Made by a program: the position numbers and the translations under genes. A DNA stretch of 33,353 nucleotides from Candidatus Zixiibacteriota bacterium (lineage in GTDB: Bacteria; Zixibacteria; MSB-5A5; GN15; FEB-12), in the NCBI GenBank assembly GCA_040752815.1, contig JBFMGC010000031.1, positions 1-33,353 on the forward strand, written 5' to 3'. Shown piece by piece: positions 26,090-33,244 of this stretch (within the stretch, counting starts at the first letter, position 1; each line of letters starts with the position of its first letter). The notes beneath the pieces were generated by a model. The model was given only the letters and a program-made list of their open reading frames with translations. It searched no databases and was not told the origin of the DNA.

Positions 26090-26428
26090 CTATGTGTGCG
26101 CAGTCGCGCGGACAAAATCCTCGCGTACGGGATGAAAGATGTCGATCACGTAACACCGCTTGATCGCCCGCGCTCCGTGCGGTGTCATCGGCGGCAACAC
26201 GAACGGATGCCCCGCGGTCAGTCGATAAGGTATACCCTCGACTGTCAACTCCATCTCTCCTTCAATCACATCCACTATCTGCTCGTTGTGATGCGAGTGC
26301 ACCGGCAGCACCGCGCCATCGTCCAAAATGACATGCGCCACGCTGACATTGCCGGTACTCACCACCCTCGCGCGAATACCCTTGGTGAGTTCAAGCTCTT
26401 TGACGGACTGAAGATCGATAAGTGGCAT
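26090..26428 (-). CDS. Single-domain cupin protein
   Basis: 112 residues, ATG preceded by AGGAG. One conserved beta-barrel cupin: motif 1 LPVHSHHNEQIVDVIEGEMELTV (His-x-His ... Glu ... Gly) and motif 2 LPPMTPHGARA supply a typical metal site of three His and one Glu. Members include sugar isomerases, dioxygenases and simple ligand-binding proteins; nothing here decides among them. Soluble. It stands alone, divergent from the redox operon, so its promoter shares the 26429-26740 gap. Confidence 0.88.
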   Translation of the reverse strand: MPLIDLQSVKELELTKGIRARVVSTGNVSVAHVILDDGAVLPVHSHHNEQIVDVIEGEMELTVEGIPYRLTAGHPFVLPPMTPHGARAIKRCYVIDIFHPVREDFVRATAHT

Positions 26429-26740
26429 AGTTAGTGTCTCCTATGGGCCATTAACTTCCTCGTGAATGTTCTGCGAACCGACTCCTTACGCCAAGTTACG
26501 CCACGACCGGTAAACTCACAAGGGCCACTGATTCTGCGCAACAAATATAAGACATCTTATAAGACCGTGTTAGTCTGGTTATTTGTACTGATCGAGTATG
26601 TTATTGTGCTGCTTGTGGATAGCTTATTGCGCTCAGACGGCCCTGTGCTCGACTTTGTGAAAATTTTCCTAAATTCCTGTTGACCGTCGCCGACATATAG
26701 GTATATTTCTCCAAATTCAGAAAATTCAGAAATGTCATAA
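26429..26740. promoter_or_regulatory. Divergent promoter region with palindrome
   Basis: 312 bases between the cupin gene and the redox operon. It holds a perfect 16-bp dyad TATAAGA-CA-TCTTATA (26546-26561), a probable operator. The stretch 26575-26740 is AT-rich. A plus-strand 73-codon ORF here encodes a hydrophobic helix but has no ribosome site and is not called. Confidence 0.5.
26680..26730 (+). promoter_or_regulatory. Sigma-70-like promoter and direct-repeat leader of the redox operon
   Basis: TTGACC (26680-26685), a 16-bp spacer and TATATT (26702-26707) form a good housekeeping-type promoter 34 nt before the ATG at 26741. Immediately downstream AAATTCAGA is present twice in tandem (26713-26721, 26722-26730). 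This may be a regulator site or 5' leader element. No Shine-Dalgarno is visible before the ATG. Confidence 0.6.
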
Positions 26741-27523
26741 ATGGACCGACCAGACCCTAACAAGGACTACCTGACCACCACTCAGGCGGCACGCCTGCTG
26801 GCGGTCTCACCCGATACGGTGCTCAAGTGGGTCCGGGCTGGGAAGGTCAAGTCATACCGCACCCTGGGCGGGCACTTTCGCATCCCGACTGGCGAATTAG
26901 GTGTTCTTGGCACCACCAAGTCTGCGCACCTTGGCGCCGTTGAAGAAACTACGCCCGTCATGCATCAGTACTGCTGGGAGTTTCTGGCGGCGGGCGGCGA
27001 GATCAAGCCCGAATGCCGTGACTGCATCACCTTTCGATCGCGAGCCCGCCGCTGCTATGAGCTCAAAGAGCTCCCAGGCGGGCTGGGCTGTCTCAACCTG
27101 ATGTGCGATACGTCCTGCACCGACTGCGAATACTACAAGCTGGTCCACGGCCAGGGGCTGAACGTGCTGATTCTCACCGGATCGAGTTCCATTCTGAAGA
27201 GCCAGGAGAAAGTGGAGCAGGTCGAAGGGCTCAGGGTGAAGTTTTGTGTCAGCGAGTACGACGCGGCTGTCGCCATTCAGTACTTCCGGCCCGACTATGT
27301 CGTGGTAGATTGCGCGTTCGGCAAGAAACGCACCGGCAGCATCTGCAACAGCTTATTTGGCGACATTCGCATTCCGGTGGCGCGGATAATTCTCTCATCA
27401 CGCAGTCGCGATATCGACGATTACTGCGATCGCGAAGTTTTCGGCTGGATTCGCAAGCCGTTCGATCTCGAACAGCTCAGGCAGTGCATCCGCGGGGTTC
27501 CGTCAATGGCTGATAATCAGTGA
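26741..27523 (+). CDS. HTH regulator with eight-Cys central region and degenerate receiver
   Basis: 260 residues. N-terminal excisionase/MerR-type helix-turn-helix (YLTTTQAARLLAVSPDTVLKW ... YRTLGGHFRIP, residues 10-50). The central part has cysteines at 78, 92, 95, 105, 117, 122, 126 and 129 (CWEF, PECRDC, RRCYEL, LGCLNLMC, SCTDC), similar to CW-type Cys-rich motifs; it could hold Zn or an Fe-S cluster. Residues ~139-258 follow a receiver pattern with D190 (YVVVD) and K239-P240, but the acidic pair is missing (NVLILTG). First gene of the operon, so it probably regulates it, with redox or metal sensing through the cysteines. That role is inference. Confidence 0.82.
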   Translation: MDRPDPNKDYLTTTQAARLLAVSPDTVLKWVRAGKVKSYRTLGGHFRIPTGELGVLGTTKSAHLGAVEETTPVMHQYCWEFLAAGGEIKPECRDCITFRSRARRCYELKELPGGLGCLNLMCDTSCTDCEYYKLVHGQGLNVLILTGSSSILKSQEKVEQVEGLRVKFCVSEYDAAVAIQYFRPDYVVVDCAFGKKRTGSICNSLFGDIRIPVARIILSSRSRDIDDYCDREVFGWIRKPFDLEQLRQCIRGVPSMADNQ

Positions 27524-27549
27524 GGATATGTATTTGCGAGGTTGTTGGC

Positions 27550-28158
27550 ATGGCTGATCAAGTCAAAGTGAGTAGTGAAGCGACACCGGCAGTGGATCGC
27601 ACTCAGGGTGACGCGTCGGATACACTCAAGATCAAGAAGACCACATTGCGCCTGGTGAAAGGGGATATCACCGTCCAGGCGATCGAGTCGTTCGTGTACT
27701 ATGCCCGGCCTGATCTGGCGCTCGGCTCCGGGTTCGGGACCGCAATCGCCCAGCGCGGCGGCCCGGCTGTGCAGGAGGAACTCAATGGTCTCGGGCCGCT
27801 GGCGACGGGCGACGTTGTCATCACCGCCGCCGGTGACATGAAGGCAGAGTACATCATTCATGCGGTGGGTCCCCGGTTTCAAGAGGAGGATCTGGAAGCG
27901 AAACTCAAACTGACTGTCCAGAACTGCCTGGTGAAAGCAGAGGAAAAGGGAATTCGGGCGATTGCCTTTCCCCCGATGGGGGCCGGGTTTTACGGCGTGC
28001 CGCTCGATCTCAGCGCTCGTATCACCCTGGGCGTGATCGGCGATTATCTGATGCGCCAGACCGGCATCACCGACGTCGTCGTGTGCCTGTTCGACAACCG
28101 TGAGTACCTGCCGTTCCAGAAACAACTGGCGGCAATAGCCGCGCAGAGAGGGAGGTAG
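27550..28158 (+). CDS. Divergent macro-domain protein
   Basis: 202 residues from the ATG at 27550 (GAGG 8 nt upstream); an in-frame earlier start would overlap the previous stop. Macro-domain pattern: LRLVKGDITVQAIESFV at the start, GFGTAIAQRGGPAVQEEL (ligand loop), GDVVITAAGDMKAEYIIHAVGP, and AIAFPPMGAGFYGVPLDLSARI. The usual Asn-Ala-Ala-Asn ligand motif is replaced by YYARPDLALGSG, so ADP-ribose binding or hydrolysis is not assured; another nucleotide-like ligand is possible. It lies 4 nt before the cytochrome-b-like gene. A macro domain in an electron-transfer operon is notable; its job there is unknown. Confidence 0.88.
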   Translation: MADQVKVSSEATPAVDRTQGDASDTLKIKKTTLRLVKGDITVQAIESFVYYARPDLALGSGFGTAIAQRGGPAVQEELNGLGPLATGDVVITAAGDMKAEYIIHAVGPRFQEEDLEAKLKLTVQNCLVKAEEKGIRAIAFPPMGAGFYGVPLDLSARITLGVIGDYLMRQTGITDVVVCLFDNREYLPFQKQLAAIAAQRGR

Positions 28159-28162
28159 GACA

Positions 28163-28840
28163 ATGAGCCTGGAATTCGTTCGCGGTACGCTTCATGATGC
28201 GGCTCTTTGTTTCATGGCTGTAGTCTACATTATTCGAGTTTACTGGCTGACCCGTTTTCCGGCGGGGATGGAGCGCCAGGCGCCGACCAGCGCGGGAAGC
28301 GCCAAACCCCGCAAGAGCATTGTCTATTCGTGGGCCAATGTCGCGATGCCGTGGGCAATGGAATCGACTCGAACCAAGTTCTTTCTCTATCTCCAGTTCG
28401 TGGTCTTCCATCTGGGTGTGACCGCGGCAATAGCGCTCATGTTTTCGATATCGTTTTACTTCAAAGGCGGCCCGCTGCCGCCCACACTGGCGACTATTTT
28501 TAGGATTGTCATCGGCGCGGCTTTTGTCGTCGGCTTGCTCCGGATCATTCGACGAATCAGCAATATCTACGTGCGGGCAATCAGCTCCCCCGATGACCAT
28601 TTCGCGGTCTGGCTTCTGACAGCCTGGTTCGGACTGGGTGTTCTGGCAGCGCCCAACGACTACAGCAACGGCGACTGGCAGGCATACGCGTTCTTCCTGA
28701 TGGGGTCGTTCTTCCTTGTTTATGTCCCCTTCTCGAAAATCTCACACTACCTGTATTACCCGTTTACGCGGTATTACTTAGGCAAAACCCTTGGCCGCCG
28801 CGGCGTATTCCCGATCAGGCGGGCGGCCCCGCAGCGATAG
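28163..28840 (+). CDS. Cytochrome b-type membrane subunit (NarI/TmcC-like)
   Basis: 225 residues, GGGAGG ribosome site. Five hydrophobic helices (about 8-30, 72-97, 107-129, 148-166, 172-195), the NarI/nitrate-reductase-gamma topology also used by DsrM, TmcC and HmcE. Histidines suited to heme b binding are seen in helix 2 (VVFHLG) and helix 5 (KISHYLYYPF). The partner HdrD-like gene starts 12 nt downstream, the usual pairing in which the membrane subunit passes electrons between the quinone pool and the cytoplasmic Fe-S protein. Quinone use and direction are inferred. Confidence 0.82.
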   Translation: MSLEFVRGTLHDAALCFMAVVYIIRVYWLTRFPAGMERQAPTSAGSAKPRKSIVYSWANVAMPWAMESTRTKFFLYLQFVVFHLGVTAAIALMFSISFYFKGGPLPPTLATIFRIVIGAAFVVGLLRIIRRISNIYVRAISSPDDHFAVWLLTAWFGLGVLAAPNDYSNGDWQAYAFFLMGSFFLVYVPFSKISHYLYYPFTRYYLGKTLGRRGVFPIRRAAPQR

Positions 28841-28852
28841 AGGATGTAACTG

Positions 28853-30604
28853 ATGGAAACCACGCTGACAACAAGATCACACAAAGCTGAAATCGTTATC
28901 GAGCGCCTGGGCAAGAAGCTCAATCGCCAGATTGTCGGTTCGCTGCTGGGCTGTGTTCACTGCGGCAACTGTATCGAGTCTTGTCATTATGTATTGGCGA
29001 ATCCGGGCGATCCCACCTACGCGCCCGCCTGGAAGGGCGACCAGTTACGGCGCATTTTCAAGCGCCACTACGACTGGACCGGCCGGATGTTCCCCTGGTG
29101 GGTGCACGCGAAAAGCCTCTATACCGATCAGGATCTCGAAGACCTCAAAGACATCGTGTTCGGCAAGTGCACGAATTGTCGTCGCTGCACGATCAACTGC
29201 CCCATGGGTGTCGACCTGCCCACGTTTAACCGTATGGCGCGCGGCCTGCTGGTTTCGGTCGGCGTGATGCCCGAGGGCGTGGCGGTAGTCAGCAAGGATC
29301 AGTGGGAAATCGGCAACCAAATGGGGGTGTTGAAAGAGGACTATGTCGACACCCTGCAATGGTTGACCGACGAGATGCGCATGGAATACGGAGAAAACTA
29401 CCCGGGTATCCCGATCGACAAGCAGGACGCCAATGTCGTTTACTCGATCAATCCGCGCGAGGTGAAGTACGATCCGAGGACTATCTCCGATGCGGCGATG
29501 ATTTTCAACGCCGCCGGCGAGGACTGGACTATGCCGTCGGAGGGCTGGGACATGACCAATTTCGGTTTGTTCTCCGGCGACGACGATTTGGGTGGGGCCT
29601 GCTCGCGCCGGTTGTTCGAGAAAGTACAGGAGCTGGGCGGCCGGACACTGGTTATCTCAGAATGCGGTCACGGCTACCGCTCCACTCGCTGCGAGGGGCA
29701 GAACTGGGCGAAGATGGATGTCGATTTCAGGATGGAGAGCTCTATCGAGACCATGCTTCGCTATATCAGGGAGGGGCGAATCAAAGTCGACAAGACCAGG
29801 AACGACATCCCGGTTACCTTTCACGACTCCTGCAACTACGCCCGCGGCTGCGGCGTGACCGAGGAGCCGCGCGAACTGCTGCAGCTCATCTGCTCCGACT
29901 TTCGTGAAATGTATCCCAATCGGGCCGAGAATTACTGCTGTACCGGCGGCGGCGGGGCGATGTCGATGTCCGAGTACACGCCCCGACGCTTGAAGTCCGC
30001 GAAGATTAAAGCCGATCAGCTTAAGGCAACCGGCGCCAAGATTGTCGTGACTACCTGCCATAACTGTGTCGACGGCTTGGCCGATCTGATCAAACACTAC
30101 AAGCTGGACATGAAAGTCACACAGTTGGTCAACCTGTGCGCCAACGCCCTAGTGTGGAAACCGGAGGTAGTGGCCGTTCCTGCCGAGGTAGTACCGGTAG
30201 CAGCAGTTGCTGCGAGCCTGGCCGGTTATCGCATACTTGTCGCCGATGATGAGCCGGACTTCGTGACGTTTGTATCAACGGTGCTGGAAGATCACGGCGC
30301 CACAGTGATTTCCGCCAGCGACGGCAACCGGGCGTTCGAGCTTGCCCGCTCCGAGAAACCGGATCTAATCACGCTCGATATCTCCATGCCCGGTAAATCC
30401 GGTATCGAAGTATTCGAGCTGCTGAGACACACTCCGGAGACTAAGCAGATTCCTGTTTGCATTATCACTGGCAAGCCGGAGATGCGGAAATTGATATACG
30501 ATCGTCCTGTCCCGCCGCCTGAAGGGTACCTCGACAAGCCGGTAGACGATGAGACGATCCTGTTCAACGTGCGCAAGACGCTCAAGATCGAGCACGTGGC
30601 ATAG
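28853..30604 (+). CDS. HdrD-like iron-sulfur protein fused to a receiver domain
   Basis: 583 residues. Two ferredoxin-type [4Fe-4S] motifs: C34-C37-C40-C44 (CVHCGNCIESCH) and C106-C109-C112-C116 (CTNCRRCTINCP). The middle carries the HdrD/DsrK/TmcB-type segment (AGEDWTMPSEGWDMTNFGLFSGDD, ECGHGY). Then a CCG domain: C327, C362-C363 (YCCTGGGG), C402-C405 (TCHNC). After a Val/Ala-rich linker (~436-457), residues 458-583 form a full receiver: D465-D466, phospho-acceptor D509 (LITLDISMP), T539 and K562 (LDKPV). Catalytic electron-transfer subunits are normally not response regulators. Phosphorylation may tune electron flow or docking; this is inference. Confidence 0.92.
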   Translation: METTLTTRSHKAEIVIERLGKKLNRQIVGSLLGCVHCGNCIESCHYVLANPGDPTYAPAWKGDQLRRIFKRHYDWTGRMFPWWVHAKSLYTDQDLEDLKDIVFGKCTNCRRCTINCPMGVDLPTFNRMARGLLVSVGVMPEGVAVVSKDQWEIGNQMGVLKEDYVDTLQWLTDEMRMEYGENYPGIPIDKQDANVVYSINPREVKYDPRTISDAAMIFNAAGEDWTMPSEGWDMTNFGLFSGDDDLGGACSRRLFEKVQELGGRTLVISECGHGYRSTRCEGQNWAKMDVDFRMESSIETMLRYIREGRIKVDKTRNDIPVTFHDSCNYARGCGVTEEPRELLQLICSDFREMYPNRAENYCCTGGGGAMSMSEYTPRRLKSAKIKADQLKATGAKIVVTTCHNCVDGLADLIKHYKLDMKVTQLVNLCANALVWKPEVVAVPAEVVPVAAVAASLAGYRILVADDEPDFVTFVSTVLEDHGATVISASDGNRAFELARSEKPDLITLDISMPGKSGIEVFELLRHTPETKQIPVCIITGKPEMRKLIYDRPVPPPEGYLDKPVDDETILFNVRKTLKIEHVA

Positions 30605-30639
30605 CGCGCGAGCGTGACTGCCCGGCAGAGGTGGCCTGC

Positions 30640-32082
30640 ATGGAAAACCAGCGACGTCGGTACAGTGATAAAGTCTTCGATGCCCTGCCCGGTTATCTGA
30701 CCGTGCAGGATCGGAATTTTCGCATAGTCGCCGCCAACGAGTCGTTTCGATCCGATTTCGGCGATTACCAGGGTCGCTTCTGCTACCAGGTTTACAAGCA
30801 GCGGCCCGAGCCATGCGAGGATTGCCCGGTGGCACGCACGTTCCACGACGGACAAAAACATCGGAGCGAGGAGCTGGTAAGAACGCTCGACGGCCGTGCG
30901 GTCTCGGTGCTGGTTTACACGACCCCGATTCTCGGGGAAAACGGCGAGGTCGCCGAGGTAATCGAGATGTCAACCGATGTCACGGAGTTGAAGAACCTGC
31001 AAAAGCAGCTTCGGGACAGCCAGCGCAAGTACCGCCAGTTGTTCGAGGATGTGCCCTGCTTTATCTCGATTCAGGATCGCGAACTGAATATTGTCGACGC
31101 TAACCGGCTACATCGGGAGACGTTTGGTGTCGGCTATGGCCGCAAGTGCTACGATGTGTACAAGCACCGCACCAAAGAGTGCGTGCCGTGCACGGTACAG
31201 CAGACCTTCCGTGACGGCCTCACCCACTCGCACGAAGAGGTTGTGACGTCTCAGACCGGCGAGACAATTAACGTGCTGGTCCACACCGCGCCGGTGCGGG
31301 GCGAGAACGGCGAGATCGAAAACGTGATCGAGATGAGTGCCGATATCACCCAGCTCCGCCAGTTGCAGGACAAGCTGGCCTCGGTGGGGATGCTGATCGG
31401 CACGATCTCGCACGGCATCAAAGGGTTGCTCAACTCGCTCGATGGCGGCATTTATCTGATCAATTCGGGCCTTAAGAAAGACGATCGGGCGCGGATCGAT
31501 AAGGGATGGGATATCGCGCTTCGCAATGTCGAGCGGATTCGCTCGATGGTGATGGACATACTATACTACGCCAAAGATCGCGAACCGAACTGGGAGACGA
31601 TCACCGGCAGCGATCTCGCCAAAGATGTCTGCAATCTGATGGTCGAGCGGGCGAAAAAGATGCAGATCGATCTGGAGTGCGCGATGAGCGGCGACGGCCG
31701 TTTCGAATGCGATCCGCAGATGATCCGCTCCCTGCTAGTCAACCTGGTGGAGAATGCGCTCGATGCCTGCCGCATCGACGCGGAGAAACCGTCGCATCAG
31801 GTGAAAGTCGAACTTCGGGAACAGCCGGAAGCGGTTCAGCTGGTGGTGACCGATAACGGTATCGGCATGGATCGGGAGACTCGCGAGAAGGCGTTCAGCC
31901 TCTTTTTCTCATCCAAGGGAGCGGGTGGAACCGGGCTGGGGCTGTTTATATCGAATAAGATCGCCCAGGCGCACGGTGGGCGGATACTGGTGGAATCGGA
32001 GGAAGGCAAGGGGAGCAGCTTTCTGGTTGAACTGCCGCGTCGCCGGCCACATATTGCTCCGACAGACGCGAATGTGACATAG
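30640..32082 (+). CDS. Histidine kinase with two cysteine-bearing PAS domains
   Basis: 480 residues from the ATG at 30640 (GAGG 8 nt upstream; a GTG three codons earlier is less likely). No membrane segment, so cytoplasmic. PAS1 (~10-115) and PAS2 (~133-240) each hold C-x10-C-x2-C: C48/C59/C62 (EPCEDCP) and C170/C181/C184 (KECVPCT). The H-box is atypical, ISHGIKGLLNSLDGG with H258. The ATPase core is complete: N box NLVENALDAC, G1 DNGIGMD, F box FFSSKG, G2 GGTGLGLFIS. Neighbouring receivers (the HdrD fusion and the stand-alone regulator) are the obvious targets. The cysteines suggest redox or metal-cluster sensing. Confidence 0.92.
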   Translation: MENQRRRYSDKVFDALPGYLTVQDRNFRIVAANESFRSDFGDYQGRFCYQVYKQRPEPCEDCPVARTFHDGQKHRSEELVRTLDGRAVSVLVYTTPILGENGEVAEVIEMSTDVTELKNLQKQLRDSQRKYRQLFEDVPCFISIQDRELNIVDANRLHRETFGVGYGRKCYDVYKHRTKECVPCTVQQTFRDGLTHSHEEVVTSQTGETINVLVHTAPVRGENGEIENVIEMSADITQLRQLQDKLASVGMLIGTISHGIKGLLNSLDGGIYLINSGLKKDDRARIDKGWDIALRNVERIRSMVMDILYYAKDREPNWETITGSDLAKDVCNLMVERAKKMQIDLECAMSGDGRFECDPQMIRSLLVNLVENALDACRIDAEKPSHQVKVELREQPEAVQLVVTDNGIGMDRETREKAFSLFFSSKGAGGTGLGLFISNKIAQAHGGRILVESEEGKGSSFLVELPRRRPHIAPTDANVT

Positions 32083-32100
32083 CGACAGAGGAATACGAAT

Positions 32101-32481
32101 ATGGCCGAAAAGAAAAAAATTCTCGTTGTGGACGATGAACCGGATACGGTGGAGTGGCTGACAGCGTTTTTCGAGGACAACGGTTACGCCACGTCGTTTG
32201 CCTACGACGGCTTCGACGGCTTCGAAAAAGTCAAGGCCGAGGGGCCGGACCTGATCACGCTGGATATCTCGATGGACAAGGAGTCGGGGATCAAGATGTA
32301 TCGCAAGCTTCACGACGACAAGGAGGCGTCGAAAATCCCCGTCATCATGCTGACCGGGGTGACATCGGATTTCAAACGGTTCATCTCGACCCGCACGCAG
32401 GTCGACCCGCCGCAGGCGTATTTCGAGAAGCCGGTCGACCGCGAAGCGCTGCTCAAAAAGGTGCGGGAGCTGATAGGGTAG
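32101..32481 (+). CDS. Stand-alone receiver (CheY-like) response regulator
   Basis: 126 residues, one complete receiver: acidic pair in LVVDDEP, phospho-acceptor in LITLDISMD, Thr in MLTG and the Lys in FEKPVD. It resembles the receiver fused to the HdrD-like protein more than generic ones: both share the PDLITLDISM string and a short insertion with R...PPxxYxxKPVD before the Lys. They are probably duplicates served by the same kinase. No output domain, so it acts by protein contact or as a phosphate sink. Last gene of the operon. Confidence 0.92.
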   Translation: MAEKKKILVVDDEPDTVEWLTAFFEDNGYATSFAYDGFDGFEKVKAEGPDLITLDISMDKESGIKMYRKLHDDKEASKIPVIMLTGVTSDFKRFISTRTQVDPPQAYFEKPVDREALLKKVRELIG

Positions 32482-32848: not shown

Positions 32849-33244
32849 ATGTTGATAGGAAAAGTCGCCCAGGCAGCCGGTGTCAATATCCAGACGCTGC
32901 GGTATTACGAACGGCGCGGCCTGGTCAGGTCGCCGGTTCGACGATCATCGGGCTACCGCGAGTATCCCCCGGACGCGGTCGACCGGATTCGCTTTGTAAA
33001 ACGATCTCAGGAGCTCGGCCTTACGCTGGCTGAAATCGGTGAGCTTCTTAGGCTCAGAGAAAGTCAACGGGCACGCTGCAGCGATGTGCGCCATAGAACG
33101 CAGTTGAAAATCGCCGAGATTGACAACAAGATCAGGAGCCTGACCGCCATGAGGAGCGCACTGGCAGTGTTGCTCAGGTCGTGTTCCTCCAACGCGACGG
33201 TCAGATACTGCCCGATTATAGAATCCCTAGAGCCCATTTCATAA
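32849..33244 (+). CDS. MerR-family metal-responsive regulator, mercury-type cysteine triad
   Basis: 131 residues from the ATG at 32849, which has GGAGG upstream; the longer ORF start runs through the promoter. N-terminal winged HTH (MLIGKVAQAAGVNIQTLRYYERRGLV ... SGYREYP), then a dimerisation helix and metal-binding end. Cysteines C77, C112 and C121 are spaced C-x34-C-x8-C, the spacing of the Hg(II) ligands in MerR (C82, C117, C126 in the Tn501 protein). Hg(II) sensing is therefore likely, though related thiophilic metals are possible. No mer transport or reductase gene is seen; the only downstream gene is cut by the window end. Confidence 0.9.
   Translation: MLIGKVAQAAGVNIQTLRYYERRGLVRSPVRRSSGYREYPPDAVDRIRFVKRSQELGLTLAEIGELLRLRESQRARCSDVRHRTQLKIAEIDNKIRSLTAMRSALAVLLRSCSSNATVRYCPIIESLEPIS

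Follow-up and report, generated by a model that had tools for sequence, protein, structure and literature searches.

A macro-domain, cytochrome b and HdrD-receiver operon of Candidatus Zixiibacteriota as a new form of Tmc/Hmc/Dsr-type redox module that co-occurs with sulfite reduction genes

The Tmc module of sulfate reducers (TmcABCD) places a TmcC-like membrane cytochrome beside a TmcB-like [4Fe-4S]/CCG protein, and the related Hmc operon comes with Rrf1/Rrf2; the tmc and hmc gene layouts used for reference are those of D. vulgaris, where we take DVU0258-0260 to lie beside tmc. Mycobacterial EtfD is one chain that works with ETF. In DsrMK(JOP), a cytochrome b and a CCG protein are tied to DsrC and dsrAB; DsrM binds two haems, according to a passage of PMC10504309, and passages of two papers (PMC10553843, PMC10504309) predict that CCG proteins of the TmcB/DsrK type act on DsrC. 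Here we describe an operon that has the same arrangement of cytochrome and CCG protein and a tie to DsrC and dsrAB, found at positions 26741-32481 of a 33,353-nucleotide stretch of Candidatus Zixiibacteriota DNA (contig JBFMGC010000031.1; the whole stretch is referred to as the window).

Relation to Tmc, Hmc and Dsr modules

The operon consists of six + strand open reading frames (ORFs), G1 to G6, separated by 26, 4, 12, 35 and 18 nucleotides (nt). Coordinates and Pfam/NCBIfam scans agree with the strand, spacing and domains given by the initial annotation, which had been made from the sequence alone: HTH_17/MerR in G1, Macro in G2, 4Fe-4S, CCG and Response_reg in G4, two PAS_4 stretches and HATPase_c in G5, and Response_reg in G6. 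The genes and the residues discussed below are as follows, with conservation counted over alignment rows.

26741..27523, + strand: G1, Cys-rich protein with HTH_17/MerR-type DNA-binding domain, lineage-specific first gene (Pfam/NCBIfam)
27550..28158, + strand: G2, macro-domain protein without MacroD catalytic Asn and Asp (Pfam, structure model, alignment)
28163..28840, + strand: G3, NarI/TmcC/HmcE-like membrane cytochrome b (weak NarI match, TmcC/HmcE matches)
28409-28411, + strand: G3 His83, invariant (78/78)
28745-28747, + strand: G3 His195, invariant (78/78)
28853..30604, + strand: G4, HmcF/TmcB/DsrK-like Fe-S protein fused to a receiver domain (Pfam/NCBIfam)
28952..28984, + strand: G4 [4Fe-4S] motif 1, Cys34-Cys44 (79 or 80 of 81 rows, the rest gaps)
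29168..29200, + strand: G4 [4Fe-4S] motif 2, Cys106-Cys116 (81/81)
29831..30067, + strand: G4 CCG motif, Cys327, Cys362, Cys363, Cys402 and Cys405 (81/81 each; Pfam CCG)
30227..30586, + strand: G4 receiver domain (Response_reg)
30377-30379, + strand: G4 phospho-acceptor Asp509 (81/81)
30640..32082, + strand: G5, histidine kinase with two PAS domains and a C-x10-C-x2-C motif (Pfam, alignment)
31411-31413, + strand: G5 His258, invariant (69/69)
32101..32481, + strand: G6, single-domain receiver (Response_reg; best NCBIfam match the DVU0259 family, below cut-off)
32263-32265, + strand: G6 Asp55 (57/57)

The kinship of G3 and G4 to the Tmc, Hmc and Dsr modules, already proposed in the initial annotation, is borne out by their best NCBIfam matches and by comparison with the DsrM-like and DsrK-like proteins of the same genome. 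G4 has the broad characters of an HdrD/DsrK-type CCG Fe-S protein (Pfam CCG/Fer4), with 13 cysteines that show no substitution in 81 rows. However, all scores fall far below the family cut-offs: G4 reaches 313 bits against its best match, HmcF (NF045711, 3e-93; cut-off 750 bits), 307 bits against TmcB (NF045724; 735 bits) and 240 bits against DsrK (NF045796; 400 bits), while G3 reaches 50 bits against TmcC (NF045723; 240 bits). The CxxCH motif expected of the c-type cytochromes of Tmc and Hmc occurs in none of the six proteins. Low scores and lack of a cytochrome c rule out membership in Tmc, Hmc or DsrMK, and the operon is a new form of this type of redox module.

In a profile alignment, His83 and His195 of G3 fall on what we take to be the haem ligands named His56 and His205 in NarI, and the other His pair is absent. 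The DsrM-like protein encoded in the same genome has both pairs, so that G3 keeps two of its four haem histidines and does not have the four His, for two b haems, of a DsrMK membrane subunit. A structure model of G3 matched NarI weakly (best E value of 0.0037) and added little beyond this mapping.

The operon differs from Tmc in having no cytochrome c, a receiver fused to the Fe-S subunit and a macro gene in 73 of 73 loci (see below). Eight loci with TmcB over the family cut-off were fetched for comparison. In six of them a G6-matching receiver is encoded within 6 kb, directly beside the tetrahaem gene in two, and kinase-like genes were found in the fetched stretch of three; the same search found a macro gene in none of the eight. 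Receivers near a TmcB-type module are therefore of a known kind, and what is new here is the fusion, the constant macro gene and the tie to dsr genes. The likeness to Hmc lies in the best match of G4 and in an Rrf2-type gene that precedes the macro gene in 19 of 76 operon loci, but there is no multihaem cytochrome among the six genes of the window. A homologous pair occurs in DsrC-cytochrome b-HdrD operons of the same phylum, with DsrC in the slot taken by the macro gene in the window and with no receiver, kinase or macro gene recognized in the fetched stretches. The EtfD chain (PDB 9ojn) matches the HdrD-like part of G4 (2.9e-11) and, weakly, the G3 model (E value of 0.13); it has no receiver, macro or kinase. 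Literature searches, mostly of listings, turned up no paper on a macro/HdrD-receiver operon, and the words macro, histidine kinase and response regulator are absent from the main texts of four papers on dsr genes (PMC10504309, PMC10591310, PMC11406059, PMC7596348).

Conservation of the cassette and its tie to dsr genes

A pattern scan of a species-genome collection gave 208 confirmed loci in which the HdrD-receiver fusion has a relative. From these the 80 best were retained, with G4 identities of 65 to 82% to that of the window, so the gene-order counts favor close relatives. These loci bear 15 phylum names, which are those of NCBI taken from the titles of records that are mostly metagenome bins; 17 of the 80 are unplaced. 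Over the 80 loci a core is kept in order, consisting of macro, cytochrome b, HdrD-like Fe-S protein with receiver, Cys-PAS kinase and receiver genes. Where there was enough flank, G3 adjoins G4 in 74/74 loci, the kinase lies 3' of G4 in 66/68 and a receiver follows the kinase in 54/65; of the 73 loci whose sequence extends beyond 1.8 kb upstream of G4, all have the macro gene adjoining the cytochrome gene. With starts set mechanically, core genes are separated by median gaps of 1 to 25 nt. Such an order is far beyond chance, and the survey rules out chance clustering. The redox pair, the kinase and the two receivers thus form one unit, as had been proposed. The proposal that all six genes do so held for the five core genes, which are found together and not scattered in other genomes, but not for the Cys-rich HTH gene, which precedes macro in just 15 of the 62 loci whose sequence before G4 exceeds 3 kb; its replaceability rules out the six-gene set as a conserved entity.

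In a tree of G4 (64 rows, covering 46 of the 80 loci and the window), the macro-type proteins form one clade (support 99), including three from loci that end before the macro gene (L038, L068, L116) and were labelled macro by kinship. The clade adjoins an unfused group (L132-L136) whose operons contain cytochrome, HdrD, USP-like, HEAT, receiver and kinase genes, in most cases after a sigma-54 activator, with a TPR gene in L135. Two fused relatives without macro (L137, L139) branch outside the clade, and in L138 the receiver is a separate gene between HdrD and kinase. The phylum label requires at least 29 changes on the tree, against a possible minimum of 14 and 42.7 in shuffles, and therefore the cassette has probably moved between phyla, although misnamed bins may add to this pattern. 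Pairwise identities of the other genes correlate with those of G4 (Mantel r of 0.47 to 0.67), and a plasmid collection held no place covering 80% of G4.

Genomes with the operon tend to carry the genes of sulfite reduction, a tie that the initial annotation had missed, as it had the atypical macro domain. Among 132 genomes of the window's phylum, 34 have the fused G4, whole or as a clear fragment, including one without macro (G083) and the incomplete or broken matches G023, G091, G097, G098 and G120; a G4-acyltransferase fusion suggested by G023/L150 was discarded, a run of undetermined bases separating the two. dsrA (E value of 1e-30) was found in 30 of these 34 genomes versus 22 of the 98 others, DsrC at an E value of 0.001 in 34/34 versus 49/98, and strong single-domain DsrC matches in 31/34 versus 41/98. 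The receiver-fused form is rare in Acidobacteriota, the phylum of G154 (11 of 396 genomes), where dsrA (E value of 1e-60) accompanies it in 11/11 genomes versus 20/385 of the others; five of the 11 had been reached earlier via the operon, and dsrA is present in 6/6 without them. No macro gene was seen in the stretch from G469, one of the 11 fused-form genomes. Across phyla, counted on 44 of the 80 loci, dsrA was present in 39 and DsrC in 42 operon genomes. The fused form occurs in only 10 of 297 genomes of the phylum of G146, a Syntrophaceae record.

The operon is also found within dsr clusters, 3' of dsrC and 5' of dsrM/dsrK-like genes, in five loci (L075, L091, L097, L104 and L173). The first four are Syntrophaceae/Syntrophus records with the order dsrA, dsrB, dsrN-like, dsrC, macro, cytochrome, HdrD-receiver, kinase, receiver and dsrM/dsrK-like genes; the dsrN-like gene was assigned by Pfam in L075, where DsrD was also found, and by place and length in the other three. 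L173, which is the same place as L047, belongs to the window's class and reads dsrA, dsrB, cobB/dsrN-like, a DsrL-like NAD(P)-binding protein, dsrC, a 79-aa ORF, macro, cytochrome, HdrD-receiver, kinase, an RsbRD_N protein and DsrM (531 bits; cut-off 300). In L174, G1, macro, G3 and the beginning of G4 come ~1.7 kb after dsrC, and in L171 and L172 the operon is ~6 kb from dsrA on the opposite strand. Co-occurrence with dsrA and location in dsr clusters, both with exceptions (see below), are what a Dsr accessory would show. The genome of the window itself has dsrAB (G000:C23:41003-43263) and two DsrC genes.

More distant relatives of G4 also have DsrC nearby. Those at ~41% identity stand in DsrC-cytochrome-HdrD operons in 7/7 fetched cases, and in the other four genomes with such relatives DsrC is ~0.7 kb away by coordinates. 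Among Acidobacteriota relatives at 57 to 60% identity, DsrC lies within 3 kb in four of five fetched, directly after HdrD in two; no dsrA was found at an E value of 1e-60 in the eight Acidobacteriota genomes with an unfused relative of this kind (G826, G635, G681, G611, G768, G784, G736 and G539; L181-L185).

Many genomes of the window's phylum contain frames of ~215 to 255 aa with two DsrC domains, whose match to the profile stops near position 101 and does not reach its C-terminal end; one of these (L084:6074-6718) is directly 5' of a macro gene. A second operon in the genome of the window (G000:C23:30033-33654; L140:4034-7655), ~7 kb from dsrAB, encodes a G1-like regulator, DsrC, a DsrM-like and a DsrK-like protein, and in its DsrC just one of the two C-terminal cysteines, the last, remains.

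Regulatory proteins and possible role of the cassette

The macro protein G2 shares its fold with MacroD-type macrodomains and macroH2A1.1. Its AlphaFold model (predicted local distance difference test [pLDDT] of 93 and predicted template modeling score [pTM] of 0.86) matches the structures of macroH2A1.1, OiMacroD, MacroD2 and YmdB, with a TM-score of ~0.75 to 0.83 to the first three. The catalytic Asn (NAAN) and Asp (GGGVD) of MacroD-type hydrolases, N30 and D40 in OiMacroD, are both absent in 75/75 rows. In the register set by the MacroD2 alignment, with the same ten-residue spacing in the titles of OiMacroD N30A/D40A entries, the Asn position (53) holds R in 34 rows, Q in 16, T in 16, another residue in 9 and Asn in none, and the Asp position (63) is Gly in 75/75. 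Residues that are kept include Asp39 (69/75) and His104, Gly107 and Pro108 (75/75). Because both catalytic positions are substituted, G2 is likely a ligand binder and not a MacroD hydrolase, judging from its residues.

The residues of two-component signaling are present in the kinase (H-box His and N-box Asn) and in both receivers (acidic pair, Asp, Thr/Ser and Lys). In G5, Cys48, Cys59, Cys62, Cys170, Cys181, Cys184 and Asn372 are, like His258, invariant in 69/69 rows, and Cys140 is kept in 68/69. Two copies of the PAS Cys motif are present in 68/68 long rows, and the kinases of L132, L136, L137 and L138 have one or more. PAS1 has a fourth Cys in 41 of 69 rows, at a position that is Gly18 in the kinase of the window. 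The PAS part found one marginal relative among solved structures (E value of 0.0016). Cys377, placed in the ATPase N-box (NALDAC), is also invariant in the 69/69 operon kinases. In the G4 receiver, Asp465, Asp466, Glu467 and Lys562 are kept in 80 of 81 rows (one gap) and the Thr/Ser position is 73/8; in G6, the acidic pair, Asp and Lys are kept in 57/57 rows and Thr/Ser is 55/2. Both receivers have the DVU0259 family (NF045717; cut-off 160 bits) as best NCBIfam receiver match, at 107.9 bits for G6 and 78.7 for the G4 domain, short of membership. In a tree across phyla the G4 receivers group apart from G6 (support 91), with no resolved group for G6 itself, a separation that fits an old duplication.

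We infer the following mechanism. G3 and G4 would form a DsrMK/Tmc-like complex passing electrons between menaquinol and a cytoplasmic thiol-disulfide carrier, which is most likely DsrC, given the gene neighborhood and the co-occurrence. G5, with an invariant three-Cys motif in both PAS domains, may sense redox state, a sulfur species or a bound cluster. It would phosphorylate two targets, the fused receiver of G4, by which the activity of the complex would be raised or lowered post-translationally, and G6, as a second output or a phosphate sink. G2 could bind an ADP-ribose-like nucleotide without hydrolyzing it and inform the complex of NAD status, and the first gene, here the Cys-rich HTH protein, would be a lineage-specific transcription switch. 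The suggestion of the initial annotation, that redox state could be fed back by phosphorylation onto both the enzyme and transcription, is a reasonable inference.

The cassette is thus probably a phosphorylation-controlled accessory of sulfite respiration. We lean toward the fuller description of an optional Dsr accessory with a DsrMK/Tmc-like pair, a fused receiver phosphorylated by the kinase, a macro reader and a lineage-specific first gene. More tentative, and in our judgement rather doubtful as a whole, is the general statement that a respiratory complex is throttled directly through phosphorylation of a receiver within its Fe-S subunit, that NAD-derived nucleotides are reported by a catalytically dead macro domain, and that the cassette has spread through some fifteen phyla. 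To our knowledge, the regulation of sulfite respiration in many uncultured dsr-bearing phyla is largely open. If the proposal is right, a respiratory Fe-S subunit run by phosphorylation of its own receiver would be an unusual form of respiratory-chain control, sulfite respiration would be controlled at electron delivery to DsrC, beyond transcription alone, and a macro domain without MacroD catalytic residues would have a place in energy metabolism. The proteins and residues with which phosphorylation control can be tested are now named.

Several observations weigh against the Dsr-accessory reading as a whole. With one of the two NarI/DsrM haem His pairs in G3, electrons may not be carried across the full width of the membrane. 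No DsrC was seen in the five fetched stretches of the nearest tree relatives, the unfused USP type (L132-L136; 62% identity), or in those of L137-L139, and fused relatives without macro exist (L137, L139 and, as far as fetched, L186). G6 is missing or elsewhere in 11/65 loci and the kinase in 2/68. dsrA was not found in 4 of the 34 operon genomes of the window's phylum (G013, G040, G098, G120), one of which is 94% complete, or in 5 of the 44 outside it, and the Fisher tests behind the co-occurrence ignore relatedness. Sulfite reduction does not require the operon, since many dsrA genomes have none (22 in the window's phylum and 20 in Acidobacteriota). In the genome of the window, operon (C31) and dsrAB (C23) are on different contigs. 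Finally, a passage of PMC4215793 calls the cytoplasmic partner of Tmc/Hmc unknown, DsrC or ferredoxin.

Some of the same evidence could be read in other ways. If G3-G4 were the sensor, electron flow would set the Cys-PAS kinase, the fused receiver would be its docking site and the output would be G6 acting on other targets. The kinase and the redox pair are indeed rarely apart (66/68), the PAS Cys motif is invariant and shared by the kinases of the four relatives examined that are unfused or lack macro, and G6 and the G4 receiver form separate groups across phyla. However, the G4 receiver has its full phosphorylation site in 80/80 rows with letters, which counts against docking because a mere docking domain would not need it, and G6 has no output domain of its own, making this alternative unlikely. 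It is less probable again that we are dealing with a plain Tmc/Hmc/DsrMK-type module with ordinary regulators, a neutral fusion and a macro protein that is a housekeeping ADP-ribose hydrolase. The best matches of G3 and G4 and the G6-like receivers near six of the eight TmcB loci (beside the tetrahaem gene in two) would be in keeping with it, but not the scores far below cut-off without any CxxCH, the macro gene in 73/73 loci with catalytic Asn and Asp absent in 75/75 rows, or a fusion kept across loci of 15 phylum names.

A general DsrC- or thiol-linked redox device, found in the same genomes as dsr genes without being part of sulfite reduction, would account for the operon genomes without dsrA and for the unfused relatives that have DsrC within 3 kb (4/5 fetched) in Acidobacteriota with no dsrA at an E value of 1e-60 (0/8). 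Against this, the fused form goes with dsrA in 11/11 Acidobacteriota and the operon sits inside dsr clusters in two distant groups, and we regard this explanation as the least probable of the three, with a small chance of being correct.

The first gene and flanking features

G1 has seven cysteines (78, 92, 95, 105, 122, 126 and 129) that are invariant in 18/18 rows, and a receiver-like C terminus without the acidic pair (Pfam E value of 0.0046, below cut-off). To see what takes its place elsewhere, the nearest recognized + strand gene within 800 nt upstream of macro was recorded in 76 loci with macro. It was of the Rrf2 type in 19, G1 type in 16, a sigma-54 activator in 12 (LMWPc and PAS domains in the one scanned), DsrC in 6 and MerR-Cys in 3; 6 loci were near a contig end and 14 had no recognized gene, four of which have a divergent G1-type gene. 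A conserved ORF of ~65 aa with an SCGVLYGTLRD-type motif precedes macro in 14 loci (L050, L055, L058, L059, L069, L070, L074, L076, L078, L086, L092, L094, L100 and L103), lying between sigma-54 activator and macro in 12 of them; the one tested had no Pfam match at an E value of 0.01.

The single good promoter proposed upstream of G1 corresponds to one further feature:

26680..26707, + strand: promoter-like site TTGACC-16-TATATT, 5' of G1 (consensus match only, 10/12)

The site is present, but sites of this kind show no clear excess over chance, with four between 26400 and 32900 versus 2.4 ± 1.4 in shuffles. Terminator-like sites were near the shuffled number as well (7 versus 5.4 ± 2.3), the two on the + strand falling within G3 (28476) and G5 (31435). 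The operon is flanked by a small cupin protein upstream (26090-26428, - strand) and a MerR-family regulator downstream (32849-33244, + strand). Between G6 and the latter there is a 17-nt inverted repeat (32583-32599/32714-32730), whose arms are 94% complementary and lie 114 nt apart; nested within it is a perfect inverted repeat of 11 nt. This may be an RNA structure or a small mobile element.

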